Of a stretch of DNA of 35,677 nucleotides, positions 2,936 through 35,677 are shown piece after piece. Position 1 is the first letter of the stretch; each line of letters starts with the position of its first letter. The notes below the pieces were generated by a model. It had not been told where the DNA came from. It saw nothing but the letters and a program-made list of their open reading frames with translations, and searched no databases. Source of the stretch: Chloroflexales bacterium ZM16-3 (lineage in GTDB: Bacteria > Chloroflexota > Chloroflexia > Chloroflexales > Chloroflexaceae); the NCBI GenBank assembly GCA_004138175.2, contig RYFE02000051.1, positions 1 to 35,677 on the forward strand, written 5' to 3'. Made by a program: the position numbers and the translations under genes.

Positions 2936-2947
2936 CTATTTCACACG
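2890..2947. repeat. 58-bp perfect palindrome overlapping the parB1 stop
   Basis: The left arm 2890-2917 (starting CGTGTGAAATAGTTCACAGG) is the exact reverse complement of the right arm 2920-2947, with a 2-base spacer TG. The parB1 stop codon (TAG, 2936-2938) lies in the right arm. No T-tract follows on either strand. Possible roles are a ParB-binding centromere, a bidirectional terminator, or a cruciform for replication or resolution. Confidence 0.8.
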
Positions 2948-10680: not shown

Positions 10681-10704
10681 CTTGGATCTCCTCTTGCAGG
10701 CTCG

Positions 10705-12081: not shown

Positions 12082-12108
12082 CACTACCTCCTAATTCTGC
12101 TACTCCAC

Positions 12109-13362: not shown

Positions 13363-13401
13363 CCGACCCCCTTGTTGCTTGCGCGTGTGGAGCAACCCAA
13401 G

Positions 13402-15060: not shown

Positions 15061-15084
15061 ACGTTTCCTGGGTGTGTGCGCGAC

Positions 15085-16926: not shown

Positions 16927-17684
16927 AGGCAGGCCGCCTTCTCTGCGGCAGCGCAGCGTAGAAGCCTCAGGTTCGCCTCGACATTCGTGATCGCTTGCTG
17001 GAGACGCCCACGCTCACGCTCCACATACGCCTCCCAGGCCGTGCGACCATCATGCGTCTCTCTGGCGCGCCAGCGCTCCCAGAGCGCCAGGCTGCCGGCT
17101 ACTTGGCGCAGGTCTGCGGCGACCTCTCGCTCTAGGGTATTGTGATATTCGCAGAGCAGTTCGCCCCAATCCTGGAGCCGGATGAGGTGGGTGTCATGAC
17201 CCTCGCCGGCGACAGGCTGCTCGAACGCATCCCAGCCCAACAGTGCCAGGGCGGCCCCCAGAGGGCGGGCACCGTCATCAATAATTCCATTGATCTCGGC
17301 CTGCACCTCGGCGTCGAGCTGGGCGAAGAAACCGAAAACGAGCAGCTTCTTCAGCTCTCGGCGCCGTAGTCGATGATCGGCGGGAGGAGTCATCGTACGA
17401 GACTGCGTTGGGTCGCTGACACCCTTGTCCCTGTCTGGACGCAGGCGCGGGGGCGGCGGCAAAGTGCTTTTTGGTTTAGGATGCAGCCGCTTTTCGAGCG
17501 CAGCCTGCTCCTCAATCAAGGCGTCGAGGCGCATCTGGTCGGAGGCTAGCAGATCATCGAGGAAAGCCTGGGCCAGGGGTACAGCACGCAGCTCCTCGCG
17601 CCGGGCCTGCAAGGCACCGATGGTGTGGTAAACCGGGCGCAGGGCCGCGATGGCGGCCTCCAGAGAAGGGAATGGGTCGCTCAT
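16923..17684 (-). CDS. Unrecognised helical protein of the protease operon
   Basis: This 253-residue protein is not recognised. The N-terminal 70 residues look helical and coiled-coil-like (LQARREELRAVPLAQAFLDD, then LIEEQAALEKRL). A Pro-rich linker (PPPPRLRPDRDK) follows, then a mostly helical C-terminal part with many Glu, Arg and Leu (RVEREV-like heptads and LEREVAADLRQVAG). No catalytic motif, signal or membrane segment is visible. Its start overlaps the CHAT protease stop and its stop overlaps the propeller start, both by ATGA. Such placement suggests an adaptor or subunit, with no direct evidence of activity. Confidence 0.75.
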   Translation of the reverse strand: MSDPFPSLEAAIAALRPVYHTIGALQARREELRAVPLAQAFLDDLLASDQMRLDALIEEQAALEKRLHPKPKSTLPPPPRLRPDRDKGVSDPTQSRTMTPPADHRLRRRELKKLLVFGFFAQLDAEVQAEINGIIDDGARPLGAALALLGWDAFEQPVAGEGHDTHLIRLQDWGELLCEYHNTLEREVAADLRQVAGSLALWERWRARETHDGRTAWEAYVERERGRLQQAITNVEANLRLLRCAAAEKAACL

Positions 17685-22000: not shown

Positions 22001-24444
22001 GCCTCTGGCAGCAGCGCAGCGAGAGCGCGCCGAACCTGCGCGACCGGTAGATCGGGCACTAAATCCAAACGCACGATGTAGCCGCTAACAACATTTCTCA
22101 CCGTAATGTCACCTACCCATGAGCCGGCAGGAGTGGCGATGACACGGCTAGCGGGATTAAATACGAAGGCGCCAGCGAGATTCTGGGCCCGCAGGTAGAA
22201 GGTGTAGCCATCGACTTCGAAGATCAACTCAGCACCAGTAGACCGAAGCGTGACAAAGCGCTCATCTTCGCTCAGCAAGCTCCGCACCGCGCCCACCGTC
22301 AGGCCGCGCCAGAGGATGGCAATGAAGAGTTCTGCCACAGCCTCGATATTCACTACGAGCTGATGCTCGCGCACGCTGTTTTCAAGCGAGACAGCGTTTA
22401 CAAGCGATTCGACGATCTGCTCAGCCCGCGGCAGGTCGCGGAACACGCTGGCTGCCCGCAGCCCAGCGGCGGGGAACTCTTCGCGCCCCGAAGCGAGCAA
22501 CACGATCAACTGGCTCTCTTCGACGCCCAAGTGCTTCGCGATCCATGTTCTGCACTCAGAGTTGCGGGTTACTAGCCTTAACAACAGCTCGTACTCATCT
22601 ACACTCTGCGGGGCTAACAACTCGGCGAGCGGCATGATAATATCCGCTCGGCTGGTGCCCTCGGGATCTGATGCAGTGGCCCCCGTCAGGAGCGCTCTCA
22701 TCGTGCGGTCAATTGGCACGCGCCCGAGCTCACCCGCATTGATCAGGTCTGGCACCACAGGTTCGAAGGTGAAGCCCAAGGCATTCAGCATGCGCATCAT
22801 AGCCTCCCCGGCGCTGCCCCGCTCGGGGAACAGCTCGCACAGGGCTGCAGTCCTGCTCCCCTCCACCAGGCCCATGCCCGCCAGCAGCAGCGGCAGGCTG
22901 ACCGCCAGCGTGCCTGTGGCCTGCCGTAGCACCTCCGCCCGGCGCAGACTCTCGCGCAGCACTGGGGTTAGCACATCAACGAGCGTGGGCTGCCATGGGA
23001 GCAACGGATCGTCTTGCTGGGCAGTCGGGCGCTCAGCACCCGTCGGGCCAGCCGGATCCTTGGTGATCAGGCGCACCGCAGGGTCGCCAAAAACTACGTA
23101 CCCGCGCACGGCGCACATCGCCGCCCACAGCCGCGCGAGGCGGGAGGGTTCGAAGAGCTTGCCGAACTTCAGATCTTCCAACTCCTCGCTGACCGCAATG
23201 GCGTGCCGCACATAGCTATTGGCAAAGACATCCTCGACCACGGCGCCCACGGGTTTCCCCCCGCGAAGCAGCGCGAGCGACGCTGCCTCCTGGTCGGGGC
23301 GTAAGTCATTTGCGGCAACCGCGGGGAAGCTAGCTCCAATGCGTCCCACCACCGCCAGCGCGCCACCGCTTTTGAGCGAGAGCATGCGCTGCGCGAGTTG
23401 GCTGATCGTGGGCAGTGCCCCCACGGACAGGTCGTTGAACGCGGCCAAATGCGGCTCCATCTCATCGCCCGCGCTGAACGCGCCCTCCATCCAGATCACG
23501 GAGCCGCTCAGCTTTGCCTTTGGGCCGAGGTCATCGATGGAAAAATAGCCATCTGGCGGGATTGGTTGCTCGAATGCCTTTGAAGAGCCAGTCCATTCTC
23601 CAGTGATGGGCGCGCCGCGAGTCCCCTTGCGACCACTCGCGAAGGAGGAGGCTACCGTTGGGCCGTCGATCAGTAGGAGCGCATCCAGGCCCTGTTCGAT
23701 GATCTCGCGCAGCCTTACTTTCGTCGCGACCCCGCCGACGAACTTCGTGAGTCTCCAGCCTTCTATACCGCCGGGCTGGCTTAGGGCTGCGGTGAGCCAG
23801 TGCTGCTCTCCATCGGACAGGTGTGGGGTGAAGAGGCCAACGCTGCGCTGGCGCAGACCGTTCGCGAGCTCGGCCTGCACCACCGCCTCCGCGTAGCGGC
23901 GGTACTCGTCGATCGTGCTGAACCAGATGCGACCGACGGCGTAGTACAGACCGAGATCACGCTGAAACGCATAGGGGATCTCGGAGGGGGAGCCGATCAG
24001 GAGCAGAAAGTAAGGCACCCCTCGGTCTGGGTCAACTGGGCCGAGAGCCACGCCGTGGCGGGCAAGGAAGGTGTTGTGCCGCTCGCCTATTTGGTAGCGT
24101 AGTTCGTGGTAGCGCATCCGTTGGGCGTTGGCCTGTCGGCGGCGATGGTCGAGAAGCGGCTCGAGGGCGTCACGCAGCGGCTCGTTGATCTCGGCAGGGA
24201 ACACAACCCCCCAGCCGGTCACGGCGAGATCGCTCGAGTCGATGTCGCTTATGAGCCCGAAGTGGGATTCGTTGCGTAGCCGGTGATTCGCCTGCAGCTC
24301 CCTAACGTTGACAAAGAGAGTCGTGCTGCGTAGGCTCTCGGCGAGAGCGAGCGCCGAGATACGCTGCGGCTGGCCATCCTCGCCAACGCTCCCAAGGTCG
24401 AGGGTTTCTTGTTCAAGGATCTGCATAGCGCGGCGTAAAAGCAT
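19084..24444 (-). CDS. Giant protein with degenerate C25-like and CHAT-like protease domains
   Basis: This 1786-residue protein opens the operon. Residues about 60-480 are homologous to the C25-like protease at 9190-10680 (TGWGVVFPA, FLLLIGSPSEIPYAF), but the catalytic positions read D260 (LLIDGPT) and F323 (WMEGAFSAGDE) instead of His and Cys. The middle (about 500-1000) looks helical. Four spaced copies of a G(D/N)I/L motif follow or lie within it: WVGDITV, QIGDITI, QFGDINV and QYGDLEI. Residues about 1380-1650 resemble CHAT (LLPWELLYPLY, FLRAGAAAFVGPRWPTTADA), yet the His-Gly site is D1527-G and SLIEL at about 1566-1570 replaces the Cys motif. A C-terminal beta-rich tail ends it. No active site survives, so scaffold, inhibitor or sensor roles are inferred. 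ATG 24444 has only a weak ribosome site. Confidence 0.75.
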   Translation of the reverse strand: MLLRRAMQILEQETLDLGSVGEDGQPQRISALALAESLRSTTLFVNVRELQANHRLRNESHFGLISDIDSSDLAVTGWGVVFPAEINEPLRDALEPLLDHRRRQANAQRMRYHELRYQIGERHNTFLARHGVALGPVDPDRGVPYFLLLIGSPSEIPYAFQRDLGLYYAVGRIWFSTIDEYRRYAEAVVQAELANGLRQRSVGLFTPHLSDGEQHWLTAALSQPGGIEGWRLTKFVGGVATKVRLREIIEQGLDALLLIDGPTVASSFASGRKGTRGAPITGEWTGSSKAFEQPIPPDGYFSIDDLGPKAKLSGSVIWMEGAFSAGDEMEPHLAAFNDLSVGALPTISQLAQRMLSLKSGGALAVVGRIGASFPAVAANDLRPDQEAASLALLRGGKPVGAVVEDVFANSYVRHAIAVSEELEDLKFGKLFEPSRLARLWAAMCAVRGYVVFGDPAVRLITKDPAGPTGAERPTAQQDDPLLPWQPTLVDVLTPVLRESLRRAEVLRQATGTLAVSLPLLLAGMGLVEGSRTAALCELFPERGSAGEAMMRMLNALGFTFEPVVPDLINAGELGRVPIDRTMRALLTGATASDPEGTSRADIIMPLAELLAPQSVDEYELLLRLVTRNSECRTWIAKHLGVEESQLIVLLASGREEFPAAGLRAASVFRDLPRAEQIVESLVNAVSLENSVREHQLVVNIEAVAELFIAILWRGLTVGAVRSLLSEDERFVTLRSTGAELIFEVDGYTFYLRAQNLAGAFVFNPASRVIATPAGSWVGDITVRNVVSGYIVRLDLVPDLPVAQVRRALAALLPEAEGREELVVLLTEALNPRIGGAPIVERLRAHPLFPRLLTVLYERWGEADESAVADDTTTFRAMLSYPPRPAVTASLDFYRLSQWLAGEQSASTLTSSLNILTLSNLLGRQERSLFEEAVHNFGTSDEQAMLQRILTPKPLNPPLFWFGPNSQIGDITIKQVHHSDLYRVRVDGLPSEIEIVIDETPDSDVKGRTWPIGQVQLSIGLSESPPIMAEEPWPWPLLLIGAGGQFGDINVGKWNDERGRAPLAGSIFPQVFSSPRDEYPALNNAQLFAFGAEGQYGDLEIEAIAGRHLFELAYARELTPELLGWSLRRHLYSPEDPALSPAAISGFAELLLASNEETATLDAVVWRLSLAWEPAAPTQVGIEAQLTLMARPVELDDTEAATDGAVVGLIVVPTRALDLIVYVDAPGFYVSGKSPLRIPLFRSGAEVRRSIVLRATELGSQDVIVEVYAGDREAGLPPARLMLPSKVSVPDPSLDLPQMPEVSGALPIPHPEPEVTLFVSLERRGSNEYLHYAISCPTLGLRAYTLEPLPLNRGDLAALRDLALEAASNAGAAPDDTLVALKGVGTLLFQRLMPEGHALRDHYYQIAILATESHVRWTFLVVAKPAALLPWELLYPLYDEERPNAERFLGASFAVCHWPGGQGLTLLPEAPVALLDLAASDHRDAERWRGVLGGPAWVITSGDGQYAPLGDPISPCYGLHVVRYADYDGESRVAAIDEPLSPSGSAGAFVEDRRLDVTMRRPVVSLSLIELDTATMRAHDPDTRLEAEWALPFLRAGAAAFVGPRWPTTADADRRFVRSLYTQLRAGIPLGPAVWAARRRVRQALPGRPDWLAYAAFGHPRCEPYQVEATRGFTLFEILDHPDDAPLIVRRHYLFRASYRTEAPAGYNARLHTPAALSDEVCVIVAPLTGGETSVYALDRKADGDYSADIKLQAPDEFGEFPLLVRFVQGNEELSSLLLELSVELEP

Positions 24445-24790: not shown

Positions 24791-25885
24791 TTAAGAAATA
24801 TCAAAGCTACCAGTTGCTGCTTCAATCGCCTCTATCAGCGCAACGATATCGCGGTGCAGCGCGGCGCGCTCCTCGTCACTTAGCTCAGCCATGCGTGGGT
24901 GAAGGCGCTTGAGATCTTTGGCCGTGCGGGCGAGCTTGTCGCGCAGCGGCGGTAGCCACTGTGGCGCGCGGGCCGAAGGTGTGGCCTCGGCCCGCCGCAC
25001 TCCTGCCAGCAGGCGCCCAATGGTCGTGAGATCAACACTCGCAGCCACACGATCACCGCTGGAGGCAAGGGCAATGGATCGCTCGCGGATCTGTCCTAGC
25101 ACTGTGTCAACCTGATCGGGGCGCAGCTCCCCAGCCCGCACCGCCCGGTGTAGCGGCTCGATTTGGTTTTCACGCAGGCGTAACTGCGCGATAGCCTGCT
25201 GCTGCGCATTTGTGAAGGCGAGCAGCCGGGTAAGCTCATGTCGCCGCGTGCTGCTGAGGCGGAAGCGACGCTCTACCTCCTCCCAGGGCGCGTCGCCGAG
25301 GGCATCTTTCATCTGGAGCAGCGCCCAGGCCCGCTCCATGTCGGTGAAGTCAGCCCGATCTTCGTTCTCGGCGTACTGCACCTGGACGCGCTCGGCTGGC
25401 GAGGGTGGGTCAACAACAATGGCGTCAAGCGCTACGATACCAGCTGTAGTCGCGGCGAGCCAGCGCCGGTGGCCGATGAGAATCAGGTAGCTCGCCGCAG
25501 TGTAGCGCTCGCTCGCCCCTGGGTACACGATGATCGGCTGGATCTGCCGCTCTTGGAGCGAGGCCCCCAAGTCACGCAGTTCGCCCATCAGCGCTGTGTG
25601 CGCGAGAGGAACTTCGCCCTCGCGGAGCAACTCCTCGGGAAGAGGGAGCAGGCGCGGCTGACGGAACGCAGGGCGCAGATCTGGGGCGATGAGCTTGACG
25701 CTGATCTGCTGCACGGCCCGCCCGGCGGTCACCGTATCCAGCGCCATGATCCCAAAGTGACTCGTGATCGCGCCCTGGCTGGCGGCTGTCTCTTCCGCCT
25801 CAGGGGTGGCAGCGAGATCGGGGCGGCGCAGGGCCGCCGCGTTCTCACGGATCGTCTTCAGGCGGTCGTCATTCTTGGATGCCAT
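24791..25885 (-). CDS. parB: ParB-family partition protein, module 2
   Basis: This 364-residue ParB-like protein has the box I variant IGHRRWLAA at residues 137-145 and YAENEDRADFTDMERAWAL at 171-189, the equivalent of the usual ENxQR region. An HTH region follows at about 190-225, and a helical C-terminus (DLKRLHPRMAELSDEERAAL) probably dimerises. It would load on a centromere and stimulate ParA. ATG 25885 overlaps the parA2 stop (TGATG). It is longer and much diverged from ParB of module 1, so the two probably recognise different sites or are kept apart functionally. The direct-repeat element with the strong palindrome lies just downstream. Confidence 0.85.
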   Translation of the reverse strand: MASKNDDRLKTIRENAAALRRPDLAATPEAEETAASQGAITSHFGIMALDTVTAGRAVQQISVKLIAPDLRPAFRQPRLLPLPEELLREGEVPLAHTALMGELRDLGASLQERQIQPIIVYPGASERYTAASYLILIGHRRWLAATTAGIVALDAIVVDPPSPAERVQVQYAENEDRADFTDMERAWALLQMKDALGDAPWEEVERRFRLSSTRRHELTRLLAFTNAQQQAIAQLRLRENQIEPLHRAVRAGELRPDQVDTVLGQIRERSIALASSGDRVAASVDLTTIGRLLAGVRRAEATPSARAPQWLPPLRDKLARTAKDLKRLHPRMAELSDEERAALHRDIVALIEAIEAATGSFDIS

Positions 25886-26691
25886 CAGCGCTGACCATCG
25901 AGCTTGATCAGCTCGCCTACGAGCTGGAGGAAGAGGGCGCGGGACTCGGAGACATCGGGGCCGCTGTAGTGAAAGATGTCCTGGCGCACTGCAACCGAGT
26001 CTCGCAGGGCTGCCCGGACTGGGATAACGGTGTCGAGGAGCAGATCACGATATTCATCGCGCAGGAGCTCATCGTACACGCGATCCGCGCCGCTGCGCGG
26101 CATATACTTATTGCGGAGTACGCTGACCTGAAGCTGTGGGTTGACCTTACGCACGCGCACCTGCGTTACGGAGTCCATTAGGGCCACGAGCGCACGGATA
26201 ACCAGATCCTCAGACTGCACTGGGGCCAGGCAGCGCGTGGCGGCGGCTAGAGCCATGCCCAAAATAGGGCTGCGCGCGGGCGGGAGGTCGAGCACGGCCA
26301 CATCGTAGGGGATCGGGTGATCTGGGGAGTCGAGTGCCTCCGACAAAAGAAAGATCCCGCCGAGGGTCGCGGCATTGAGCAGAGAAGGGAGGCTCGCCAT
26401 CTGCGGGTGAGCGGCGAGCACATGAACGCCACCGGTCGTAGGGATCGCACGGTCGGTAATACTCTCTGCGCGCAGCTGGCCGGCGATGGCCTCGTTAAAC
26501 ACCCCAAGGGCGCTGCGATCAGCAGGCATGGTTGTGACATCGATGCCGAGCCAGTGGGTCGCGCTGGCCTGGGCATCGAGATCGACCAGAAGAACATCGA
26601 GCCCCGCCTGCTGAAAGGCGGCGGCCAGATTCACAGAAAGGGCGGTCTTCCCGACCCCGCCTTTCTCAAGCGCCACAGCATAGGTGATCAT
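25885..26691 (-). CDS. parA: ParA-family partition ATPase, module 2
   Basis: This 268-residue Walker-type (deviant P-loop) ATPase has EKGGVGKTALSVNLAAAF near the N-terminus, LLVDLDAQASATHWLG (A' motif) at about 34-50 and VAVLDLPPARSP (Walker B) near 125. It would form ATP-dependent dimers on the nucleoid that pull ParB-bound plasmids apart. The frame can start at GTG 26697, but ATG 26691 fits the GGAG site better. It lacks an N-terminal HTH, so it is a short, Ib-like or chromosomal-like ParA; repression is then expected from ParB or the XRE protein. All motifs are intact, in contrast to parA1. It is probably the working partition ATPase here. Confidence 0.9.
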   Translation of the reverse strand: MITYAVALEKGGVGKTALSVNLAAAFQQAGLDVLLVDLDAQASATHWLGIDVTTMPADRSALGVFNEAIAGQLRAESITDRAIPTTGGVHVLAAHPQMASLPSLLNAATLGGIFLLSEALDSPDHPIPYDVAVLDLPPARSPILGMALAAATRCLAPVQSEDLVIRALVALMDSVTQVRVRKVNPQLQVSVLRNKYMPRSGADRVYDELLRDEYRDLLLDTVIPVRAALRDSVAVRQDIFHYSGPDVSESRALFLQLVGELIKLDGQR

Positions 26692-26904
26692 CAGCACATG
26701 CTCCGTTCCGGTGCGGGTAGCGTTCGTTGGCTGAGCATATCGCGTGCGAAGGGCAGGTCAGATCGCGGTTTAGCGCATCTGAATGCAGGAAAAGGGGGGG
26801 GTGCGCTGAGCGCACCCTGGTCGTATGGCGAATAGAGGTCGAGTCGCATTGTACGGCATCCTGATGCGCTATCGAGGGGGGGTGCGCTGAGCGCACCCTG
26901 ATGG
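26692..26904. promoter_or_regulatory. Structured leader upstream of parA2 with twin palindromes
   Basis: Two identical palindromes, GGGTGCGCTGAGCGCACCC, lie at 26799-26817 and 26880-26898, 81 bases apart, each preceded by a G-run on the plus strand. A further pair, TAGCGCATC (26771-26779) and GATGCGCTA (26863-26871), is inverted. There is no T-run after them, so terminators are unlikely. They are good candidates for ParB-binding or XRE operator sites. Confidence 0.7.
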
Positions 26905-27261
26905 TCACGATGAGCGGGATGAAGGCTGATCGAGCAGTCGCTCTAGCGCTGCCAGCATCGGCGGGAGCAGGTCGGGGTGCTGCTCCAGGGTTTGTGTGAG
27001 CAGTTGCACTGCTTGGTGCTGCGCGCTTCGCCGCTGCTCCTCAAGCAGGGCTGCGGGCGGGATGCCCAGCACATCGGCCGCGCGGGTCAGGGCCACCGCC
27101 GTCATGGCCCGCTCGCCAGACTCCCATTTGGCAACCGTCGAGCGATCCACCCCCAGTGCCTGTGCGAGATCTCCCTGGGTGAGCACGACGCGCAGTCGAG
27201 CTGCGCGGAGACGCTCACCAACTTGCGCATCAATGGTCGCCTCGCCAGTGCGCCCAGTCAT
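26905..27261 (-). CDS. XRE-family HTH regulator, module 2
   Basis: This 118-residue Cro/CI-type repressor has a clear helix-turn-helix at residues about 15-70 (LRVVLTQGDLAQALGVDRST, then VAKWESGERAMT). The rest is helical and may dimerise. Its ATG overlaps the antirepressor-like gene's stop (ATGA at 27258-27261), exactly as in module 1. One of the twin GGGTGCGCT palindromes starts seven bases past its stop codon. The likely targets are the three GTGGCGTTCCGCCAC-type operators at 28134-28243 or the twin palindromes; which one cannot be decided from sequence. Confidence 0.88.
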   Translation of the reverse strand: MTGRTGEATIDAQVGERLRAARLRVVLTQGDLAQALGVDRSTVAKWESGERAMTAVALTRAADVLGIPPAALLEEQRRSAQHQAVQLLTQTLEQHPDLLPPMLAALERLLDQPSSRSS

Positions 27262-28118
27262 ATCAGCTGCTCCTGGTGCGGTGGCAGAGCGTCCGGGTCA
27301 TCAGGGAGCAACGTTGCGGCCTGCTGATGCAGCCAAGCAAGTGCGCGGTCGTATTTGCTCGCTGGGAGCGCATCGTATCGTGGGATACCCATGTCGATCT
27401 TAAACTGAGCGAATAGCCGCTCGTAGGTGTTGATCGTCGTATTGGTGCGCTGCAGGTAGCGGATGGCAATCCGCTTGATGGACCGCTGGATATACTCCGC
27501 TTGGACCGCGCTAATTTTCACGATCTGTCGCAGATCCTCGACCACATCCTCAACTGTCTGTAGCCGGTCGTCGATCGAGCCAACCTGCTCGCGCGTCGCA
27601 TGCTGCTCGGCGAGGCTGGCAAGGAGCACATCCCGAAGGGTGCGGAGCTCACGTACAGTGGCGGCCAGCTGCTGATGGATCTCGGTGGGAATGAGGGCGG
27701 TGTCTGTGGTGGCCGGCGAGTTTAGCGGCAGAGTAGGGATAGCGGGGCCATAGAGCGCGTTCAAAACAACGACGAGCTCTTTTTGGTAGCGCACGAGCTT
27801 CGGGCGCACATCATCGCGCACCTGGCTTGGGGTGATTGTCGCGAGCCAGAAGGCGATGTGAGTATGCATGATGGCCAGCACCGAGCGGATGCGACCGCCG
27901 ATAGGGACTTTGACGACGCGGAGGCCCTGGGAGAGCACATCATGCTCGCGGAGGCGATCACTCTGCGGTTGGGTGGCAAGCCCGAGGGCATCGCAGACCA
28001 GGCGGATGGGGACTGCGACCCCCTCGCCTTCTAGCACCGCAGCAATGATCTCATCGCCATCAAGATCGACGCTCTCAATACGGACGGGGCGCTGCGGAAG
28101 CTCCGGCAGATCGGTCAT
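27258..28118 (-). CDS. Antirepressor-like protein (P22_AR_N type), module 2
   Basis: This 286-residue protein has an N-terminal P22_AR_N-like domain at about 15-120 (VPIRLVCDALGLATQPQSDR, then VLAIMHTHIAFWLATI and VRPKLVRYQKELVVVL). A coiled-coil segment follows (LRDVLLASLAEQHATREQVG at about 165-185). The C-terminus is similar to ORF6C (AIRYLQRTNTTINTYERLFA, then KIDMGIPRYDALP). ATG 28118 is chosen over upstream in-frame codons because GGAG lies six bases before it; the earlier frame start would read through operator O1. It leads the partition 2 operon. Function as an antirepressor or DNA-binding regulator is by family resemblance only. Confidence 0.75.
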   Translation of the reverse strand: MTDLPELPQRPVRIESVDLDGDEIIAAVLEGEGVAVPIRLVCDALGLATQPQSDRLREHDVLSQGLRVVKVPIGGRIRSVLAIMHTHIAFWLATITPSQVRDDVRPKLVRYQKELVVVLNALYGPAIPTLPLNSPATTDTALIPTEIHQQLAATVRELRTLRDVLLASLAEQHATREQVGSIDDRLQTVEDVVEDLRQIVKISAVQAEYIQRSIKRIAIRYLQRTNTTINTYERLFAQFKIDMGIPRYDALPASKYDRALAWLHQQAATLLPDDPDALPPHQEQLI

Positions 28119-28133
28119 ACAATCTCCATAACA

Positions 28134-28243
28134 TGTGGCGTAATGCCACAATAGCACAGGTGATCAGGTGCGTCAAGGGCGAAGGTGGCGTTCCGCCACC
28201 TTGGATACAGCAAGTGATCTATCGAACGTGACGTTCCGCCACA
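28134..28243. promoter_or_regulatory. Three operator palindromes of partition module 2
   Basis: O1 is TGTGGCGTAATGCCACA at 28134-28150. O2 is AAGGTGGCGTTCCGCCACCT at 28182-28201 (extending to 28202). O3 is an imperfect GTGACGTTCCGCCAC at about 28229-28243. O1 overlaps the -10 and start region and O2 abuts the -35. This is a textbook repressor layout. Confidence 0.82.
28148..28176 (-). promoter_or_regulatory. Sigma-70-type promoter of partition module 2
   Basis: On the minus strand TTGACG (28171-28176) and TATTGT (28148-28153) are 17 bases apart, the same -35 and spacer as in module 1. It drives the gene starting at 28118. Confidence 0.78.
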
Positions 28244-28283
28244 TTGATCGCACTGCGACATAGCATATGTTCTGGCATGAATC

Positions 28284-29591
28284 TCACCCGCGCCGCGTCT
28301 CCAGGTTGGCAAAGCGCGTCGTCGGCGCGTCAAAGCGCACCCCCACCACGCCCAGCGGCCCGTTCCGCTGCTTGGCCACGTGCAGATCCGCTACGCCATC
28401 GGGCGTCGCCTCGTTGGCATGTTCCTCCCGCGAGATGAAGATCACGATGTCCGCATCCTGCTCCAGGCTCCCGCTGTCGCGCAGGTCGCTCAGCTGCGGC
28501 ACCTTGCTCTGCCGCTTCTCTACTTCCCGCGAGAGCTGCGACAGCGCGAGGATTGGGCACTGGAGCTCCCGCGCCAGCAGCTTCAGCTGCCGCGAGATCC
28601 GCGAGACCTCGTCTACCCGGCTCGTCGTTCCCGTATCGCCGATCAGCAGCTGGAGGTAGTCCACGATCAGCAGCTCCAGCGGGCGCACCGTCGCTAGCCG
28701 CCGCGCCTTTGAGCGCACGTCCATCACCGTCAGCATCGCGCTGTCCTCGATCGCAATCGGGGCGGCGGCGATCACCCCGAGCGCATCCAGCATGGCCGGA
28801 TCGCCCCGTCGGGTCAAGCCCTCCACCCGCCGCGTGTCTACCCCTGTGTGGATCGCCAGCAGCCGCTGTAGTAGTTCGGCCCGCCCCATCTCCAACGACA
28901 CCACGCCCACGCTGCGCTGCTGGCGGACCCCCAGGTGGTAGGCGATGCTCATAGCCAGCCCGGACTTCCCCAGCCCTGGCCGTGCGGCCAGCAGGGCGAG
29001 TTGCCCCGGTCGCAGGCCACCGTTGAGCCGCCGGTCAAGGTCGAGCAGGCCGGTCGGCACTACTCGCTCGTCGCCATCGGCCTGGGCCGCGTCAAAGAAC
29101 TGCTGCACCACCGTGCTCAGCGGCACAAAGTCGGCCCCGCGCTGGCGCTGGCTCACCGCGAACAGTGTCTGCTCGGCCTGGTCGAGAGTGGTCTCCAGCG
29201 CCCCCCGCTCGTTATAGCCCAGCGCGCTGATGGTTCCGCCTGCCTCAATCAGGCGGCGCAGCGTCGCGGCGCGGCTGATTGCCTGTGCGTAATATTCCAC
29301 ATGCACGGCGGTGGGCACCTCGGCGACCAACTCACCCAGAACATGCAGCCCCCCCACGATCTCCAGCCGCTCCTGGCGGCGCAGCTCGCTGGCGACCGTG
29401 GCGAGGTCGGGGGGCACGCGCTGCGCCAGACAGGCCAGCATGGCGGTGTAGATCTGGGCATGTTTCTCCAAATAAAAGTCGGCAGGCTGGAGCTGGTCGC
29501 TGATCACGAGGATGGCGTCGCGCTCCAGCAGGATGGATCCCAGCACCGACCGCTCGGCGGTGAGGTCGTAGGGCACGCTGCGCTCGCTCAT
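28284..29591 (-). CDS. dnaB: DnaB-type replicative helicase
   Basis: This 435-residue hexameric 5'-3' helicase unwinds DNA at the replication fork. The N-terminal DnaB domain spans about 5-105 (ERSVLGSILLERDAI). The RecA-like C-terminal domain has Walker A ARPGLGKS at 203-210, VSLEMGRAEL at about 231-240, Walker B LLIVDYLQLL at 307-316, and RISRQLKLLARELQCPILAL followed by SQLSREVEKR. Length and motifs are those of a normal DnaB. Its ATG overlaps the stop of the initiator-like gene upstream (ATGA at 29588-29591), so the plasmid makes its own helicase with its loader or initiator. A plasmid copy of dnaB suggests partial independence from the host replisome. Confidence 0.95.
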   Translation of the reverse strand: MSERSVPYDLTAERSVLGSILLERDAILVISDQLQPADFYLEKHAQIYTAMLACLAQRVPPDLATVASELRRQERLEIVGGLHVLGELVAEVPTAVHVEYYAQAISRAATLRRLIEAGGTISALGYNERGALETTLDQAEQTLFAVSQRQRGADFVPLSTVVQQFFDAAQADGDERVVPTGLLDLDRRLNGGLRPGQLALLAARPGLGKSGLAMSIAYHLGVRQQRSVGVVSLEMGRAELLQRLLAIHTGVDTRRVEGLTRRGDPAMLDALGVIAAAPIAIEDSAMLTVMDVRSKARRLATVRPLELLIVDYLQLLIGDTGTTSRVDEVSRISRQLKLLARELQCPILALSQLSREVEKRQSKVPQLSDLRDSGSLEQDADIVIFISREEHANEATPDGVADLHVAKQRNGPLGVVGVRFDAPTTRFANLETRRG

Positions 29592-31192
29592 GCGGGGTGC
29601 TCCTGCTCCAGCCGCGCCAGGATCGCCCGCTGCTCGGCGGGGGTCGCCACGGCGCGGAAGCGGTAGATCCAGCGGTCGCGCTGTTCGTCGCTTAGGCCGG
29701 GGTGCTGATAGATTGGCAGGGCGCTAAGCGGTCGCTCAGGGACGACGGGCACCGGGATCGCATCCGGGAGCGCGAGGTCGTCCAGGTGATCGGCAGGGTG
29801 CTCCTGGGCCAGCCGCGCGAGGATGGCGCGCTGTTCGGCAGCGGTATGCACGGCGCGGAAGCGATAGATCCAACGGTCGCGCTGTTCGTCGGTGAGACTA
29901 GGGTGCTGGTAGATCGGCAGGGCGCTCAGCAACGGCTCCGGCTCCAGCGGCGTATCAGTGGCGGGCAGGTCGCGTAGGGCGGAGACGACCCAGGCGGGGA
30001 GATCACGCACATCGGCGCGGGCGCGGGCCTGGGCGATCACCTGCGTGACCTGCGCGACCGGGTGTTCGGCAAAACGCAGCGCGACGCTGCGCCGCACGCC
30101 GATGGCGAGCAGGAGCTGGGTGCTCTCGTTGGGAGCAAGAGCATCGGTCGGTGGCGGAACACGCCGTCCGGCTGTTCGGTGGCGAAGGGAGATCTCTCCA
30201 CCACCAGCAGAGGTGAGGGTCTGCTCACTGGTATCGGTGGTGGAATCTCTATCCTTCTGATTCATGATTCCATGTGATCCCGGCGCGTCGACCGCGAGAT
30301 GTGTTTCCAGGCTTTCTGATGCGGTAATCGGCCCCGCATCATGCGCGCCATGCCCGATCTGGTCCCCGAGTCCCCCCCCGAGTCCCCCCCCGAGTCCCTC
30401 CCCGAGTCCCTCCCCGGTCATGGGGCCGATCTGGCCCGGCGGCACAAAGAAGAGGCCGTGGCCGGGTTCGGCTGGGGGCGGGGGCGGGGGCGGGAAGGCG
30501 GTGCGCCGCCAGCCCGCCTCGGTGAGGGCGTCGGGCGCACGCTGGGAGGCGCTGGCGAGGATGGTGGCTTCGTCGGGTACGGGACGGGGCTGGCCGTGTA
30601 CCAGGAGGTGGAGACCGGCGAGGATGGGGTTGGCGACGGGCAGGCCCGCAAGGGCCAGGGTGTAGGCTCCGACCTCGCGCAGGCCGAGGAGCGGGGTGGT
30701 GAGGTACCGGCGGGCGATGGCCGGGTGGTCGGGGTGGGGGTCGAGCCGACCCATGCAGACATCAAGGAGGTTCTGGTCGAGGCGCAGGGTTGGGATGTGG
30801 CGTGGGCGACCGAGGCTAGGGGCATGGAGATCCCAGAGGCACGGGGTGCCACCGATGCTGCCCCAGGTGGGGGTATAGGTGGACTTGCCGCCAAGCCGTG
30901 GGGTGACGCTGACCCAGGGGGTTTTGGCGAGGTGGATGAGGGCGCGGGCGGCGGCACCGTCGCGGAGGGCGGGGTCGAAGACCTGGAGGTCGCCGGCGGA
31001 GAGGGGGACGGGCTGGCCGGTGGCGCGGAAGATGCGGGCGATGAGGGCGAAGGCGGCGATGGCGATGGGGGCCGAGCGCAGATCCTCGGCGAGGCGGCGG
31101 GGGATGAGGACATAGTAGGTGGGCGTGGGAGCGCCGGTTGCCAGCGGTGCAGGCGGCACCGGGGCGGGGCGGGGAGCTGTCCAGGGCTGCAT
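29588..31192 (-). CDS. Putative replication initiator or helicase loader
   Basis: This 534-residue protein is not assigned to a family but is likely a Rep or loader protein: it overlaps dnaB and lies beside the iterons. Residues about 25-180 look like a winged-helix region (VLIPRRLAEDLRSAPIAIAA, then ALRDGAAARALIHLAKTPW). The middle is low complexity: a Pro run followed by GEGLGEGLGGGLGGGLGD, encoded by a 12-bp tandem repeat at 30364-30411. The C-terminus contains a duplicated unit of about 66 residues (LSALPIYQHPSLTDEQRDRW and LSALPIYQHPGLSDEQRDRW), spanning roughly 29591-29950. ATG 31192 has AAGGA seven bases upstream; the longer open frame to 31297 lacks such a site and runs into the outward promoter. 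Initiator function is inference from position. Confidence 0.65.
   Translation of the reverse strand: MQPWTAPRPAPVPPAPLATGAPTPTYYVLIPRRLAEDLRSAPIAIAAFALIARIFRATGQPVPLSAGDLQVFDPALRDGAAARALIHLAKTPWVSVTPRLGGKSTYTPTWGSIGGTPCLWDLHAPSLGRPRHIPTLRLDQNLLDVCMGRLDPHPDHPAIARRYLTTPLLGLREVGAYTLALAGLPVANPILAGLHLLVHGQPRPVPDEATILASASQRAPDALTEAGWRRTAFPPPPPPPAEPGHGLFFVPPGQIGPMTGEGLGEGLGGGLGGGLGDQIGHGAHDAGPITASESLETHLAVDAPGSHGIMNQKDRDSTTDTSEQTLTSAGGGEISLRHRTAGRRVPPPTDALAPNESTQLLLAIGVRRSVALRFAEHPVAQVTQVIAQARARADVRDLPAWVVSALRDLPATDTPLEPEPLLSALPIYQHPSLTDEQRDRWIYRFRAVHTAAEQRAILARLAQEHPADHLDDLALPDAIPVPVVPERPLSALPIYQHPGLSDEQRDRWIYRFRAVATPAEQRAILARLEQEHPA
30364..30411. repeat. 12-bp tandem repeat within the initiator gene
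   Basis: Four consecutive copies of CCCCGAGTCCC(C/T) keep the reading frame and encode a Gly/Leu/Glu-rich linker. Copy number is likely to vary by slippage. Confidence 0.85.
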
Positions 31193-31251
31193 AGACGAAT
31201 CCTTCTTTGCCGAATAGCGGCAACACAAAAGCGATCCCTGTCGCTTTCTCG

Positions 31252-31280
31252 TTGACAAGGCGATCAGCGGTCGATATACT
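31252..31280 (+). promoter_or_regulatory. Consensus sigma-70 promoter facing the iterons
   Basis: TTGACA (31252-31257), a 17-base spacer and TATACT (31275-31280) form a near-perfect promoter on the plus strand. It points away from the minus-strand initiator gene and toward the iterons. No clear gene follows, so its product could be an antisense, priming or regulatory RNA. Confidence 0.75.
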
Positions 31281-31507
31281 AGAAGCGCATAGGCCACCTG
31301 CTATGGCGTCACCACCCTTCGGTGTGCTGGACGTTCCGGCAGTGGGCGGATTTTGAAGGGCTCTCGACGGCTTGGTGGCTTGGCGAGGGCCTTTCGCATG
31401 CCCACCGTTTGGTGCCTGGTGGCGCTACTCTCCTATAACAGCTATGAGGATACAGTTCGTGATCGTCGGGTCATTGCGGTGGCGATCAGATGTACTATCA
31501 TAGCATG

Positions 31508-31525
31508 CCGTTTTTGGGAAAACGG
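31508..31525. repeat. Hairpin upstream of the iterons
   Basis: CCGTTTT (31508-31514) and AAAACGG (31519-31525) form a 7-bp perfect stem with loop TGGG. It might end the rightward transcript or be a protein site. Confidence 0.5.
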
Positions 31526-31566
31526 AGTGCGATTTGGCTTCCTAATGCCGTAAAACCGTGATCGGC

Positions 31567-31754
31567 AGTTAAACTGCTCGCAAGTACCGGAGGTATGCGT
31601 GGCTGCCGCAGTTAAACTGCTCGCAAGTACCGGAGGTATGCGTGGCTGCCGCAGTTAAACTGCTCGCAAGTACCGGAGGTATGCGTGGTGTGCGGTAGCG
31701 CATGCCGCCTTTGTTCCCACGACTGAAGTTAAACTGCTCGCAAGTACCGGAGGT
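31567..31754 (+). repeat. Four iterons of the plasmid origin
   Basis: Four exact copies of a 28-bp core lie at 31567-31594, 31610-31637, 31653-31680 and 31727-31754. The core begins AGTTAAACTGCTCGCAAGTA and ends CCGGAGGT. The first three are spaced 43 bp apart and also share the segment GGCTGCC or its start; the fourth follows after 74 bp. Copies 1-3 begin with a 13-bp palindrome GCAGTTAAACTGC. Direct repeats next to a rep-like gene are expected to bind the initiator and set copy number. Confidence 0.88.
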
Positions 31755-31817
31755 GTTTGGATTTACAGGTTAAGCTTGCTAGACAAGGTATCAGAAGAGG
31801 CAATTCAGCTTGACAGT

Positions 31818-31879
31818 CTACCCGACAGCCCCACAGCCCTACATATGGCATTGTATTTGGCTGTAGAGCTGTCGGGTAG
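31818..31879. repeat. Nested inverted repeat (cruciform) beside the iterons
   Basis: CTACCCGACAGC (31818-31829) pairs exactly with GCTGTCGGGTAG (31868-31879). Inside it, ACAGCC pairs with GGCTGT. TTGACA and TGTCAA outside may extend the symmetry. It lies between the iterons and the 3' end of the HTH gene, so it may be an initiation structure or a terminator; no T-run is present. Confidence 0.75.
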
Positions 31880-31913
31880 TTGGGCAGATTGTCAATCAGG
31901 TTTGAACCTTGTC

Positions 31914-33662
31914 TTACGGCGAATCAACGGTGTCGGTCGTTGCTTCAGCCAGCCACGCCCGGATCCGGGCGGATAGCTGCGGTGATGGCTGGCGCCGGTC
32001 GCCTTCGATTTGCGAGAGGTAGGGCACGGAGATACTCAGGTGGCGGGCGAGTTGATCCTGCTTCCAGTGCCGTACCGCGCGCGCCCGGCGGATCGCCGCG
32101 CCGCTGATTGGCGTCTCCTCGGTTGGTGGCGGATCGGGGATTACTTCTGATGCCTGTAGGAGGATCTGGGTCGATGTCTGGTTCGTGATCTGCTCTTGGG
32201 GTGCTGGAGTGGTCAGCACCAGATCGATCCGGGAGGCCAGCCAGCGATCAACCCAGCCGCGCTGCCGGTCTTCGTCGGCTGGGCCGTAGCCGTCGGGCCA
32301 GCCGACATCAACAAAGATATCCGCCTCGCGAAGGCTGAGGAGCGCGCTGTCCAGGCGGTCGCGCGTGCGTCCTGCCCAATCCTTGGTGCGCGCCGCTACT
32401 TTAGGGAGCTCGCCGATATCGGTGAGGAGCGCGGCCACGCCGATGGTGATCTGGCTCCGCTGGTTGCTGCCTGCCCGCATCAGGATGTGCTGGCCGATCT
32501 TCTTCGCCAAGACTGCCACGCCGCGATTCTCGCGGTGGTCGAGCTCCAGCAATGCGCGGGCCATGCGGCCCACAAAGATGCGCCCTGAAGCGTTGAGCCA
32601 CCAATACGCCCACTGGCCTGCGCGCACACTCCAGGAGATATTGGCGGCTTGGCTCTCACCGCTCCGCTCGACGATCACAATGTCGAATAGCGTGTCGCCG
32701 CGCCATGAGGCGTGATCGAGCGGCTGATCTCCATCGCCGACTGGCCAGGCCTCAACGTCAAACGAGAGGTGGCGGAGGTGATCGATCTCTTCCGCGATCC
32801 GTTGGCGCATGTCGGCGCGATCACTTCCCCAGCGCTGGATGCCCTTGTAGCTCAGGATGGTGTCGGCGGTGATGCGGATCGGCTCTAGTAATGGGTACTG
32901 TGGCCCAGACCCACTCTCAGGCGCGCAGAGCTGCGCGAGTACGGCCAGGGCTACGTCGGCGGTGAATGGACTCAGCCGCTCAACAAGCGCCCACAGGGTG
33001 TCCCCAGTGGCAAGGCTGCCGCGCCCCGGCTGGACGTAGACGCTGATGATCCCGCCGTGAACCGAGGTGTGCTGGTAGAATGGCATGCCATCAGGGCGGA
33101 TTCCCCAGCCATCGATCAGCTCGCGCGCACGCTGGCCGCCCTTCCAGATGGCGCTGATAGTGGTAAAGACAGCAGGGTTGGTGGGAATGTTTCCCTGTCC
33201 GTCAGGGAAGGCGTTGAGCTCTGCAGTATTACGATCCTGAGCGCGGAGGAGCGGGTCAGGCTGTGCGACAAGAGCCTGGATCTGGGCCAGAAATGCCGCC
33301 CGTGTATCCGGGTCGTCGATCTCGTGGATCACGCCTGCCTGCATGTGCAGCCGGAGGTGCGCGATCTGTTCGTGGTGGATCGGACCATCCTGATCATAGA
33401 GCTCACTGAGCGCTGCACGACCTGGCAGCTCGCCGGGCCTGAGCCGCAGAAAAAACTCTAGCGACCAGCGCCCACCGTTGATGATGAGCCTACGGAATTC
33501 GCTATCCTCGGGCCGCTCAGGCTCCTGCTCAGGCGAGGGCGTATCTCCGGCGGGTAGTGGCGTCATCCGTGCTTTCTCATTGTCTGGGGCGGGCAGATGG
33601 CTGGTGGCGGGATTATAGCACGCTGGGTGTGCGGCGACCGCATAGGTAGTGGGGTCGTGCAT
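31914..33662 (-). CDS. Large protein with C-terminal XRE HTH, possible plasmid Rep protein
   Basis: This 582-residue protein is not recognised as a whole. The C-terminus (about 520-570) is a clear Cro/CI helix-turn-helix (RAVRHWKQDQLARHLSISVP, then YLSQIEGDRRQPSPQL). The main body (about 150-450) has mixed alpha/beta character with segments such as WGIRPDGMPFYQHTSVHGGI, ILSYKGIQRWGSDRADM and ISWSVRAGQWAYWWLNASGR, which recall large plasmid replication or regulatory proteins, but no catalytic motif can be named. ATG 33662 has AGGAG six bases upstream. It is downstream of the membrane-protein gene (20 bases away) and directly beside the origin repeats, so a role in origin binding is plausible. 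That role is inference. Confidence 0.6.
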   Translation of the reverse strand: MHDPTTYAVAAHPACYNPATSHLPAPDNEKARMTPLPAGDTPSPEQEPERPEDSEFRRLIINGGRWSLEFFLRLRPGELPGRAALSELYDQDGPIHHEQIAHLRLHMQAGVIHEIDDPDTRAAFLAQIQALVAQPDPLLRAQDRNTAELNAFPDGQGNIPTNPAVFTTISAIWKGGQRARELIDGWGIRPDGMPFYQHTSVHGGIISVYVQPGRGSLATGDTLWALVERLSPFTADVALAVLAQLCAPESGSGPQYPLLEPIRITADTILSYKGIQRWGSDRADMRQRIAEEIDHLRHLSFDVEAWPVGDGDQPLDHASWRGDTLFDIVIVERSGESQAANISWSVRAGQWAYWWLNASGRIFVGRMARALLELDHRENRGVAVLAKKIGQHILMRAGSNQRSQITIGVAALLTDIGELPKVAARTKDWAGRTRDRLDSALLSLREADIFVDVGWPDGYGPADEDRQRGWVDRWLASRIDLVLTTPAPQEQITNQTSTQILLQASEVIPDPPPTEETPISGAAIRRARAVRHWKQDQLARHLSISVPYLSQIEGDRRQPSPQLSARIRAWLAEATTDTVDSP

Positions 33663-33682
33663 GCAGAGCTCCTTCTCTGATA

Positions 33683-34624
33683 TCAGATCTGAGTCCGGCG
33701 ATAAGCACCGCGCGCGGCGCGCTCAATCTGGCCGGCCTCCATGGCAGCCTGGATGACCCGCTGGGCGCTCCCTTCGGAGCAGCGCAGGCGCACACGCACG
33801 TCGCGCGGCGTGAAGAGGATTCCCTCTCCATCGGGGAATGCGGCCAGCAGGTCGGCCATCCCGTAGGTCATTGGTCGCCCGCCCATGGGCGCTGGCTCGG
33901 TCGTGGCGACGTTTAGTGTAGCTAGTTCGGGCGGTGTGGAAGGACTCATAACCTGTTCTGATGCGGATTCCTGGGGCATGTTATCGCTGAGCAATCCGGT
34001 GATGACGCCCCGTAGCGTCTCGACCTCCACGAGGAGGGCGAGACGCACGGCCTCCAGGGTGCGGTTGGAGGTCTCTACGGCGACGATCCCTGCGGGGATG
34101 CTCAGCGGTAGCAGGAGGACGAAGCTGCCGGCCAGCAGCGGCAGAAGCTGCGCCTGCACGGTCACGTCGATGGCGGGGGCGTGGCGCGCCACGAAGCTGG
34201 CGTTCAGCAGGGCCGTGACGAGATAGAAGTAGATCGTCCAGCGGTTGGATGGCGCGCCGACGAACGCTGCCGCCGCGTTGGCCTTGGCGATGTAGAGCGC
34301 GCAGGCGTCGATCATCAAGGTGAAGGCCAATGCCGCACCGTGGTAGACGGCGGCGGGGAGCTGGAGCGCGCCGACATGCGCCGGGGCGATGGCGGCGACT
34401 GATTCCCAGATGTGGATGGCGCTGACGAAGATGATCGCCCAGGTGAGCAGGTGCCCCCAGGCCAGCAGCCCCTCGGCGGAGCGGAGCGCCTCGGCCTTGG
34501 CCCGCAGCAGGCCGCGCTGGCGGGCGGCCTGGGCCTCGGGGCGCTCCAGCAGGGCCGGGTCGATGCTGAGTAGCGCGGCGAGCGGGGCGGGCGCGGCGGG
34601 GCGCTCGCGGATGGTGATGGCCAT
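33683..34624 (-). CDS. Four-helix membrane protein with C-terminal winged-helix-like domain
   Basis: This 313-residue protein has four predicted membrane segments at about residues 55-80 (LLTWAIIFVSAIHIW), 90-112 (AALAFTLMIDACALYI), 130-148 (IYFYLVTALLNASFV) and 162-188 (LLAGSFVLLLPLSIPAGIVA). A linker and a soluble C-terminus follow. The last 60 residues (ILFTPRDVRVRLRCSEGSAQ, then RVIQAAMEAGQIERAARGAY) look like a winged helix. A membrane-bound DNA-binding protein is suggested. The gene starts two bases after the ATPase stop, so they form one operon. Function is unknown; tethering of the plasmid or a DNA-transfer apparatus are possibilities. Confidence 0.75.
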   Translation of the reverse strand: MAITIRERPAAPAPLAALLSIDPALLERPEAQAARQRGLLRAKAEALRSAEGLLAWGHLLTWAIIFVSAIHIWESVAAIAPAHVGALQLPAAVYHGAALAFTLMIDACALYIAKANAAAAFVGAPSNRWTIYFYLVTALLNASFVARHAPAIDVTVQAQLLPLLAGSFVLLLPLSIPAGIVAVETSNRTLEAVRLALLVEVETLRGVITGLLSDNMPQESASEQVMSPSTPPELATLNVATTEPAPMGGRPMTYGMADLLAAFPDGEGILFTPRDVRVRLRCSEGSAQRVIQAAMEAGQIERAARGAYRRTQI

Positions 34625-34626
34625 GA

Positions 34627-35677
34627 TTAGGATCTCCCTTGGTGGAGCTGCTCGTCCTCGATCTGGCGTACGAGCGCGCTGATGGTCGTGTTGTCGCCCT
34701 TCACCACATCCCGGATCTGCGAAACCGTCCAGCCCTGGCGCACGAGGGTACGCACGAGATCCTCACGGGTGCGGCTCTGGGGCGGTGCGGCGAACTGGTC
34801 TGTCTGTTTGTCTGTCTGTTCGTCTGTCTGCACGGCCTGATGTGGCACGGGGGCCGGTGTATCGAGTGGTTCGTCTGTCTGTCTGGTCTCGGCCATGGAG
34901 GGCTGTGGTGCCACAGCTGCGACCCTATCGATCCCGCGCAGGTCGAGCAGCCGGCGCGCGCCCGTCACCGGCGAGACGGCGACGACGATCAGCGGGAAGG
35001 CGCCGCCCTCGGGGGGGCGGCCCAGCGGCAGGCTGCGGGCTAGATCGGGGATGTCGCGCAGCTCGCGGCCCACGAAGGCGCCGCAGTACACGATCCAGTC
35101 GAAGCTGGCTCGGAACGCCGCGGTGTCGCCCTTGGAGCCCAGGGACTCGGCGGTGTCGCCGTGGGCGCAGCCGATGAACGAGATGCCGAACTTACGGCCC
35201 TCCTTGAGCAAGCGGATCATCAGCCGCCCCGGCGAGTCCTGGTCCTTGCCGACGACGATCTCTGAGGTGACACTCCCCCACTCGTCGGAGGCCAGGGTGA
35301 AGGGGGCGAAGCGGGCCTGGGCGTCGCTGTTGAGCGCCTGGGCGCGCTTGGTCAGCTCGGACTCGGCGCGCAGCAGGGCGGCGTAGATGGTGGCAAAGTC
35401 GCGCCCGCCGCCGAGGACGCGAGCGGTGGCGGGCCACTTGCCGGGGTGGCTGTGCGGGTCGAGCACGTAGCAGCGGCGCTGACGGTGCGCCAGGAGGGCC
35501 TGGAGCAGGGTGGTCTTGCCGCTGCCCCGGCTGCCGACGATCAACAGGTTGTCGCTGGCGGCCAGCTCGGCGAGCGTGATCACCGGCAGGGCGGGGGCGT
35601 CATTGCCAGTCTCGGCGAGCGGGTCGTTGTCGCCCCAGGCGGGCAGCAGCGGCGGCTCCGGCTGGCCCCCCGGTCGC
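34627..35677 (-). CDS. P-loop ATPase (HerA/FtsK or Zot-like), 5' end beyond window
   Basis: The frame is open to the right edge, so the true start may lie outside; a GTG at 35583 is the first good internal start. Walker A is GSRGSGKTTLL, preceded by NLLIV. The next block YVLDPHSHPGKWP and the ASDEWGSV Walker B-like segment resemble ATPases of the DUF87/HerA or Zot group that move or anchor DNA. IRLLKEGRKFGISFIGCAHG is typical of these families. The C-terminal third is a linker with TDEQTDKQTD repeats (short CTGT/GTCT repeats in the DNA) and a terminal HTH-like part (RQGWTVSQIRDVVKGDNTTI). It is coupled to the membrane-protein gene downstream, which fits a membrane-linked DNA pump or partition accessory. 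Confidence 0.75.
   Translation of the reverse strand, partial: RPGGQPEPPLLPAWGDNDPLAETGNDAPALPVITLAELAASDNLLIVGSRGSGKTTLLQALLAHRQRRCYVLDPHSHPGKWPATARVLGGGRDFATIYAALLRAESELTKRAQALNSDAQARFAPFTLASDEWGSVTSEIVVGKDQDSPGRLMIRLLKEGRKFGISFIGCAHGDTAESLGSKGDTAAFRASFDWIVYCGAFVGRELRDIPDLARSLPLGRPPEGGAFPLIVVAVSPVTGARRLLDLRGIDRVAAVAPQPSMAETRQTDEPLDTPAPVPHQAVQTDEQTDKQTDQFAAPPQSRTREDLVRTLVRQGWTVSQIRDVVKGDNTTISALVRQIEDEQLHQGRS

Follow-up and report, generated by a model that had tools for sequence, protein, structure and literature searches.

In the classical iteron plasmids F, P1, R6K and RK2, direct repeats lie beside the rep gene, and helicase and partition genes are found nearby. A tandem spacing of 22 bp is typical of iterons, and DnaA boxes are present in many iteron origins, though not in all. 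To our knowledge, a recognised initiator is lacking in many of the large plasmids found in cyanobacteria, in Chloroflexota and in soil Bacillaceae. For large cyanobacterial plasmids, this is described as a frequent situation in PMC10899382. CyRepA1 and CyRepX, which are replication proteins of cyanobacterial plasmids, are helicase- or primase-like (PMC10899382, PMC9978351), and the terms “iteron” and “helix-turn-helix” occur 0 times in the main text of these two papers. Chromids are of the iteron type in beta- and gammaproteobacteria and of the repABC type, with RepC, in alphaproteobacteria, according to a review (PMC6090056), in which the word “Chloroflexi” occurs 0 times.

The locus described here lies on contig C75, which constitutes the entire window analysed (35,677 bp, 65% GC) and belongs to a 6.27-Mb genome of 127 contigs; its two ends, when compared, show no overlap. 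Read along the minus strand, the genes are those of a P-loop ATPase (34627-35583), a 313-aa protein and the 582-aa protein, then, past a repeat array, those of the 534-aa protein, the DnaB helicase, antirepressor-like and XRE proteins, ParA, and ParB (Table 1). The best explanation of the array, in our opinion, is that it supplies the iterons of the replication origin of C75, a low-copy, Oscillochloris-like plasmid, and that the 582-aa protein is its initiator. We hold this to be probable on sequence grounds, the low copy number being presumed. The origin would be of a known kind (iteron), and the initiator family appears to be new.

Table 1. Features of the candidate replication region of contig C75
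Feature	Position	Strand	Remarks
ParB-like protein	24791..25885	-	PF02195 25.9 bits, slightly below cut-off 26.3
ParA-type ATPase, same conserved module	25885..26697	-	PF13614
DnaB-type replicative helicase	28284..29591	-	PF03796 E 9.2e-80, PF00772 E 4.3e-28
534-aa protein	29588..31192	-	569 aa if GTG at 31297 used; without family match
Non-coding stretch, 534-aa gene to iterons	31193..31564	none	93.5% identical to ZM17-4
Sigma-70-like promoter TTGACA-17-TATACT	31252..31280	+	Consensus match only; faces iterons; identical in ZM17-4
Iteron 1	31565..31607	-	Head 31565-31577; conserved 17-bp core 31578-31594
Iteron 2	31608..31650	-	Core 31621-31637
Iteron 3	31651..31693	-	Core 31664-31680
Iteron 4	31725..31754	-	Core 31738-31754; imperfect head
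MITE-like element	31780..31915	none	Inverted repeat, ends AGACAAGGT / ACCTTGTCT; between iteron 4 and rep stop codon
582-aa candidate initiator (Rep)	31914..33662	-	C-terminal XRE-type HTH, residues about 521-566

The array, just downstream of the 582-aa gene, comprises four exact 28-nt direct repeats, AGTTAAACTGCTCGCAAGTACCGGAGGT, starting at 31567, 31610, 31653 and 31727. The initial annotation had placed four such repeats at 31567-31754, with a 43-bp spacing followed by a longer gap, and both statements are borne out: the coordinates are correct, and the start-to-start spacings are 43, 43 and 74. A 27-nt pattern derived from the repeat occurs 4 times in the 35,677 bases, each time with 0 mismatches where 3 were allowed, and 0 times in 100 dinucleotide shuffles. 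Taken as 43-nt units, the copies at 31565 and 31608 are 100% identical, that at 31651 is 91% identical, and the fourth, at 31725, 77% over 43 nt. At 10.5 bp per turn, 43 and 74 correspond to 4.1 and 7.05 helical turns, so the suggestion that the sites share one face of the helix is arithmetically fair in the window, but it holds less well in relatives. The cores read on the minus strand, i.e., in the sense of the 582-aa gene. Within its own genome, a 19-nt core pattern is confined to C75 at up to 2 mismatches, with one 3-mismatch match elsewhere. The MITE-like element, which has partial copies elsewhere in this genome (contigs C97, C34 and C86), is absent from the ZM17-4 locus described below and is an insertion outside the origin core.

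A pattern-based scan of species genomes, which finds close relatives only, returned two loci. The first, on a 67-kb scaffold of Oscillochloris sp. ZM17-4, shares window positions 25915-31683 (92.5% DNA identity) and 31913-34659 (96.9%), and its array has six copies, spaced by 43, 42, 43, 43 and 71. The array has diverged more between the two (83.5% identity over aligned bases) than either the flanking non-coding DNA (93.5%) or the fourfold sites of rep (92.8%). The second locus, L010, is a MAG contig of Ca. Chloroheliaceae, and its protein is 44% identical to the 582-aa protein. By blastn (E <= 1e-5), the window and L010 have only two alike stretches, both within this gene. The L010 core, ACCTCCGCTACTTGAGA, has 15 of 17 bases in common with the window core, ACCTCCGGTACTTGCGA (2 mismatches; 0 matches in 200 shuffles); it is present in six copies, all in the orientation of the gene and at most 420 bp downstream of it, the last three at 22-bp steps. 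The repeats are followed, after a gap of about 180 nt without an ORF of at least 90 aa, by dnaB and then by a DnaG-like primase gene; the gene order is thus rep-iterons-dnaB-primase in L010 and rep-iterons-534-aa gene-dnaB in the window. Among 400 Chloroflexota genomes, the core pattern was found in 2, the same two that have a full-length protein match, and the L010 genome is not one of the genomes matched; the reversed pattern, used as a control, occurred once in each of five other genomes.

As judged from these alignments, the repeat core is kept with the 582-aa protein in a distant genus and not with the surrounding DNA, a comparative result which favours the “likely origin” that had been proposed for this region. 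The proposal of palindromic heads fares differently. Copies 1-3 do begin with GCAGTTAAACTGC, an odd-length palindrome with arms GCAGTT/AACTGC round one base, but copy 4 begins with GAAGTTAAACTGC, an imperfect head, and the head is not the conserved part of the unit: it is intact in 3 of the 6 ZM17-4 copies and was not found in L010. Outside the genus, the palindromic head shows no conservation.

The core of the 582-aa protein matches no replication family in Pfam, NCBIfam or PHROGs, in keeping with the earlier idea that the initiator family may be undescribed; nor was a description encountered in the literature found, which comprised open-licence papers, so that an older one may be missed. Beyond the HTH, the family is unmatched in Pfam, NCBIfam, PHROGs and PADLOC. 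With respect to Rep_3, TrfA, RPA and other named families, scans of the window protein and of distant relatives gave only HTH and chance-level matches; Pfam detects no primase- or helicase-type domain in the protein, and scans of viral contigs returned no further homologues. AlphaFold2 models of the full length and of residues 150-485, each built with only 3 sequences, are poor (mean pLDDT 44.5 and 45.8, respectively). Foldseek gave zero matches against the PDB at E <= 0.001; that other families are missing there is not evidence of anything. The better-modelled part of this poor model, residues about 383-485, has a winged-helix-like form; among 302 chains compared with it, RepE of plasmid F matches best (Z 7.1, 84 residues, 3.7 Å), followed by rows with Z of 5.4 or less, many of which are winged helices of ORC and others; a Z under 8, as the tool cautions, may mean only a common arrangement. 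The likeness of this second winged-helix part to RepE is suggestive only. We think that the protein combines two winged-helix-like stretches in its core with the C-terminal XRE-type HTH.

Profile and tblastn searches yielded a wider set of relatives. A three-sequence profile gave, among many HTH-only matches, partial matches reaching past the HTH in four genomes (G304, G183, G317 and G362). In all, this search of the phylum matched 129 of 400 genomes at E <= 0.001, but most of the matches listed cover only about residues 500-580, i.e., the HTH, and were excluded as relatives. Two cyanobacterial plasmids with relatives (L049 and L050) came from a tblastn search, and the queries L043 (from G304), L050 and L044 (from G183) then retrieved 27, 46 and 46 plasmid records, respectively. 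The hosts are Peribacillus, Cytobacillus, Metabacillus and Lysinibacillus, together with filamentous and unicellular cyanobacteria; a plasmid of Paludibaculum (Acidobacteriota) carries a relative that is unannotated there, and one plasmid record is labelled Klebsiella grimontii. In the rows shown, the relatives are annotated as HTH or transcriptional regulators or as hypothetical proteins.

Comparison of the cores by hhalign, with the C-terminal 75 residues removed, connects the window group with one cyanobacterial group (95.6%, E 1.3e-8, columns 157-482), with a second cyanobacterial group (95.4%), with G362 (95.7%) and with the G304/G183/G317 group (75.4%, E 2.5e-5). The match of the window group to the Bacillota proteins is weak (44.5%, E 2.3e-4), and that of the G304/G183/G317 group to them is 100%. 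Against this, G362 fails to match either cyanobacterial group (2.6% and 0.3%). The G362 relative (L045, on G362:C12, 3379-5184) is a 602-aa core relative without a C-terminal HTH by Pfam; dispersed AAAAGGCGACTTT repeats lie downstream of it in both orientations (L045 6360-6946). From the 27, 46 and 46 records, 18 plasmid loci were picked for diversity rather than at random. Several plasmids have an annotated CyRepA1 family, PriCT-2, DUF3854, dnaB or primase C-terminal gene and/or a par gene within a few kb of the relative, and in several of the chosen loci zero annotated replication genes adjoin it.

Repeat arrays accompany many of these relatives. Each locus was scored by the best ungapped direct repeat in the 700 nt after the gene, and 15 of 25 loci reach the threshold of 20, which was set after the scores of these same loci had been seen. 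Of 164 control windows taken from these loci, 13 reach it (Fisher p 9.6e-9), and the 700 nt preceding the gene reach it in 3 of the 25 loci. L051, in which the match ends 56 bases from the end of the record, and L045 were excluded from scoring. The window and L009 represent one lineage, and without L009 and the six Bacillota loci the proportion is 14/18. In a small hold-out of three later loci, the scores were 22, 62 and 17, at offsets of 22, 21 and 22. The best repeat has an offset of 43 in the window and L043, and of 21-23 in eight loci (L049, L050, L058, L060, L063, L066, L067 and L046); other offsets are 78 (L068), 108 (L010), 128 (L009), 141 (L065) and 194 (L062). None of the six Bacillota loci has a downstream array, nor is there one (score >= 20) in L044, L059 or L064; in L061 the downstream repeat is weak (score 13, 0/100 shuffles). 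A strong repeat is located upstream instead in L054, L057 and L064. In L057 (2884-3583), from a Peribacillus psychrosaccharolyticus plasmid, a long array of 39-nt tandem repeats upstream of the relative separates it from a divergent primase-type gene. When ten repeat units were compared with the window unit, only that of L010 stood out (1/500 shuffles as high); the other nine resembled it no more than shuffles did (114 to 479 of 500). On present alignments, the iteron sequence is not conserved across phyla.

The array might alternatively be a transcriptional operator, by which the 582-aa HTH protein regulates the 534-aa/dnaB operon and itself, the origin lying elsewhere. We regard this as improbable. 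The C-terminal XRE-type HTH and the near-palindromic heads would suit an operator, and many relatives are named “helix-turn-helix transcriptional regulator” in databases; however, the large protein core exceeds the needs of a repressor, and the 22-bp tandem spacing is typical of iterons. The promoter-like site upstream of the array on the plus strand would also suit regulation, but it faces the array, away from the 534-aa gene. Moreover, the gene after the array varies, being dnaB in L010 and elsewhere a gene of the CyRepA1 family, PriCT-2, DUF3987 or a hypothetical protein, and it is often, though not always, of a replication type. There is no long ORF behind the promoter-like site, from which an RNA across the origin could arise.

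The DnaA box TTATNCACA was absent from 31101-32000 at up to 1 mismatch, and sampled 60-nt windows of 31190-31969, all at most 57% A+T, include no strongly A+T-rich element beside the array. The non-coding stretch next to the iterons is about as conserved between the window and ZM17-4 as the fourfold sites of rep. Rfam gave zero matches at gathering score in the window, with two chance-level matches in 31000-32300, and no tRNA was found in the window. A non-coding RNA at the origin is not claimed, in view of fold z-scores of -1.99 and -1.25 and conservation at about fourfold-site level.

It is considerably less likely still that ParB or an adaptor protein binds the array as a parS-like centromere. 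A parAB pair belongs to the same module and is also seen beside some relatives, but the window repeats adjoin rep and the replication genes rather than parAB, and the core is kept in L010, where no parAB is seen, by look, among the ORFs of at least 90 aa in 8.6 kb. That the 534-aa protein, whose gene lies across the array from the 582-aa gene and directly beside the non-coding region, is the iteron-binding initiator in place of the 582-aa protein is scarcely credible, as L010 keeps the repeats and the 582-aa relative with no such gene before dnaB (the contig is short, so that a gene of this type could lie elsewhere) and as its likeness to the protein after the L043 array is not above that of shuffles (65/500 as high). 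In the sequences compared, it is the 582-aa protein alone, and not the 534-aa candidate, that has been seen to travel with iterons; the 534-aa protein is possibly a helper in helicase loading.

Members of the family also occur on second chromosomes. Chromosome 2 of T. terrenum measures 1,074,634 bp (PMC3035366), and Ca. Chlorohelix allophototropha L227-S17 has chromosomes of 2.96 and 2.45 Mb, a chromid of 375 kb and plasmids of 241 and 55 kb (PMC10972752). On replicon size, we take G183:C2 (1,074,634 bp) as the former chromosome and, among the five contigs of G304, C2 (2,453,413 bp) as the second chromosome of the latter. Each genome has one family match, on C2, adjoining genes that read as parA and parB (L043; L044 by look). 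In G183 and G304 alike, C1 carries the strong DnaA match (E 7.8e-76 and 6.5e-72); weak DnaA matches comprise a second one on C1 in G183 and others on C1-C4 in G304. Along G183:C2, the cumulative GC skew, as sampled, reaches its minimum in the 999-1019 kb bin and its maximum at 594 kb (permutation p 0.017), and rep, at 1,036 kb, lies in the bin next to the minimum, which is shallow and of low resolution, the 27 kb bin being equally low to two decimals. T. terrenum (L044) has a downstream score of 9, i.e., no array. On G304:C2, the GC skew is flat (permutation p 0.60), but a pair of 29-bp repeats, 43 bp apart, begins where rep ends. The skew minimum is away from the array in five small cyanobacterial plasmids (mean distance 0.60 of half circle), and on C75 the cumulative skew climbs on the whole, interrupted by small dips, and does not turn at the array. 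GC skew thus agrees with the position of rep only on G183:C2.

These observations lead us to a broader proposition, for and against which we see about equal weight: that large plasmids of Chloroflexota, Cyanobacteriota, Bacillota and Acidobacteriota owe their replication to one unnamed family of iteron-binding initiators, with a winged-helix core, a C-terminal XRE HTH and iterons mostly just downstream, and that this family has been recruited to initiate chromosome 2 in both Thermobaculum terrenum and Ca. Chlorohelix allophototropha. If this is true, a gene filed as “HTH regulator” is the Rep of many large plasmids, with consequences for vectors and incompatibility typing, and there is a directly testable answer to how replication starts on the second chromosomes of two Chloroflexota, outside the Proteobacteria, the group for which chromid initiators were described.

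If the array is an iteron origin served by the 582-aa protein, monomers of this protein would bind the 17-bp cores and distort the DNA, which would open near the array, and the plasmid's own DnaB would be recruited and loaded, assisted by the 534-aa protein. As a dimer, the XRE domain may contact either the near-palindromic head or an operator. The copy number would be kept down, as in other iteron plasmids, by the binding of spare iterons and by pairing between arrays.

Elsewhere on C75, several further genes deserve mention. The contig carries two parAB pairs (2936-4571 and 24791-26697), of which that at 2936-4571 more closely resembles the parAB genes next to rep on G304:C2 (51% identity for ParB and 42% for ParA). 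It also carries two P22 antirepressor/ORF6C-type genes (5044-5877 and 27258-28157). A small HTH-type gene comes after each of them, assigned to XRE by Pfam in the case of 27258-28157 and judged only by look in that of 5044-5877, and a Fic/DOC family protein is encoded at 7378-8349. A cluster at 9190-24444 encodes a clostripain-type peptidase, a CHAT-domain protein, Hsp70, a propeller protein, an alpha/beta hydrolase and a 1786-aa protein; PADLOC gave zero matches for the six proteins scanned from it (the 1786-aa protein was outside the scan), and it may be an undescribed protease-based system.

Among known systems, F, P1, R6K and RK2, with their RepE/RepA/pi/TrfA-type initiators, resemble this locus in having direct repeats by rep, here with a four-turn (43 bp) or, in relatives, two-turn (22 bp) spacing, and in having helicase and partition genes nearby; the modelled second winged helix of the 582-aa protein is, weakly, most like RepE. 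Unlike their initiators, the 582-aa protein has no replication-family sequence match and carries an extra C-terminal XRE HTH, and the window differs further in that the array is downstream of rep and no DnaA box was found in the stretch searched. A CyRepA1 gene follows the 582-aa relative in several cyanobacterial plasmids, but the protein itself differs from CyRepA1 and CyRepX in being without such a helicase- or primase-like domain by Pfam. Finally, RctB of Vibrio, likened here by description, is a case in which a plasmid-type initiator and iterons drive a second chromosome, and the same idea would apply to chromosome 2 of T. terrenum.
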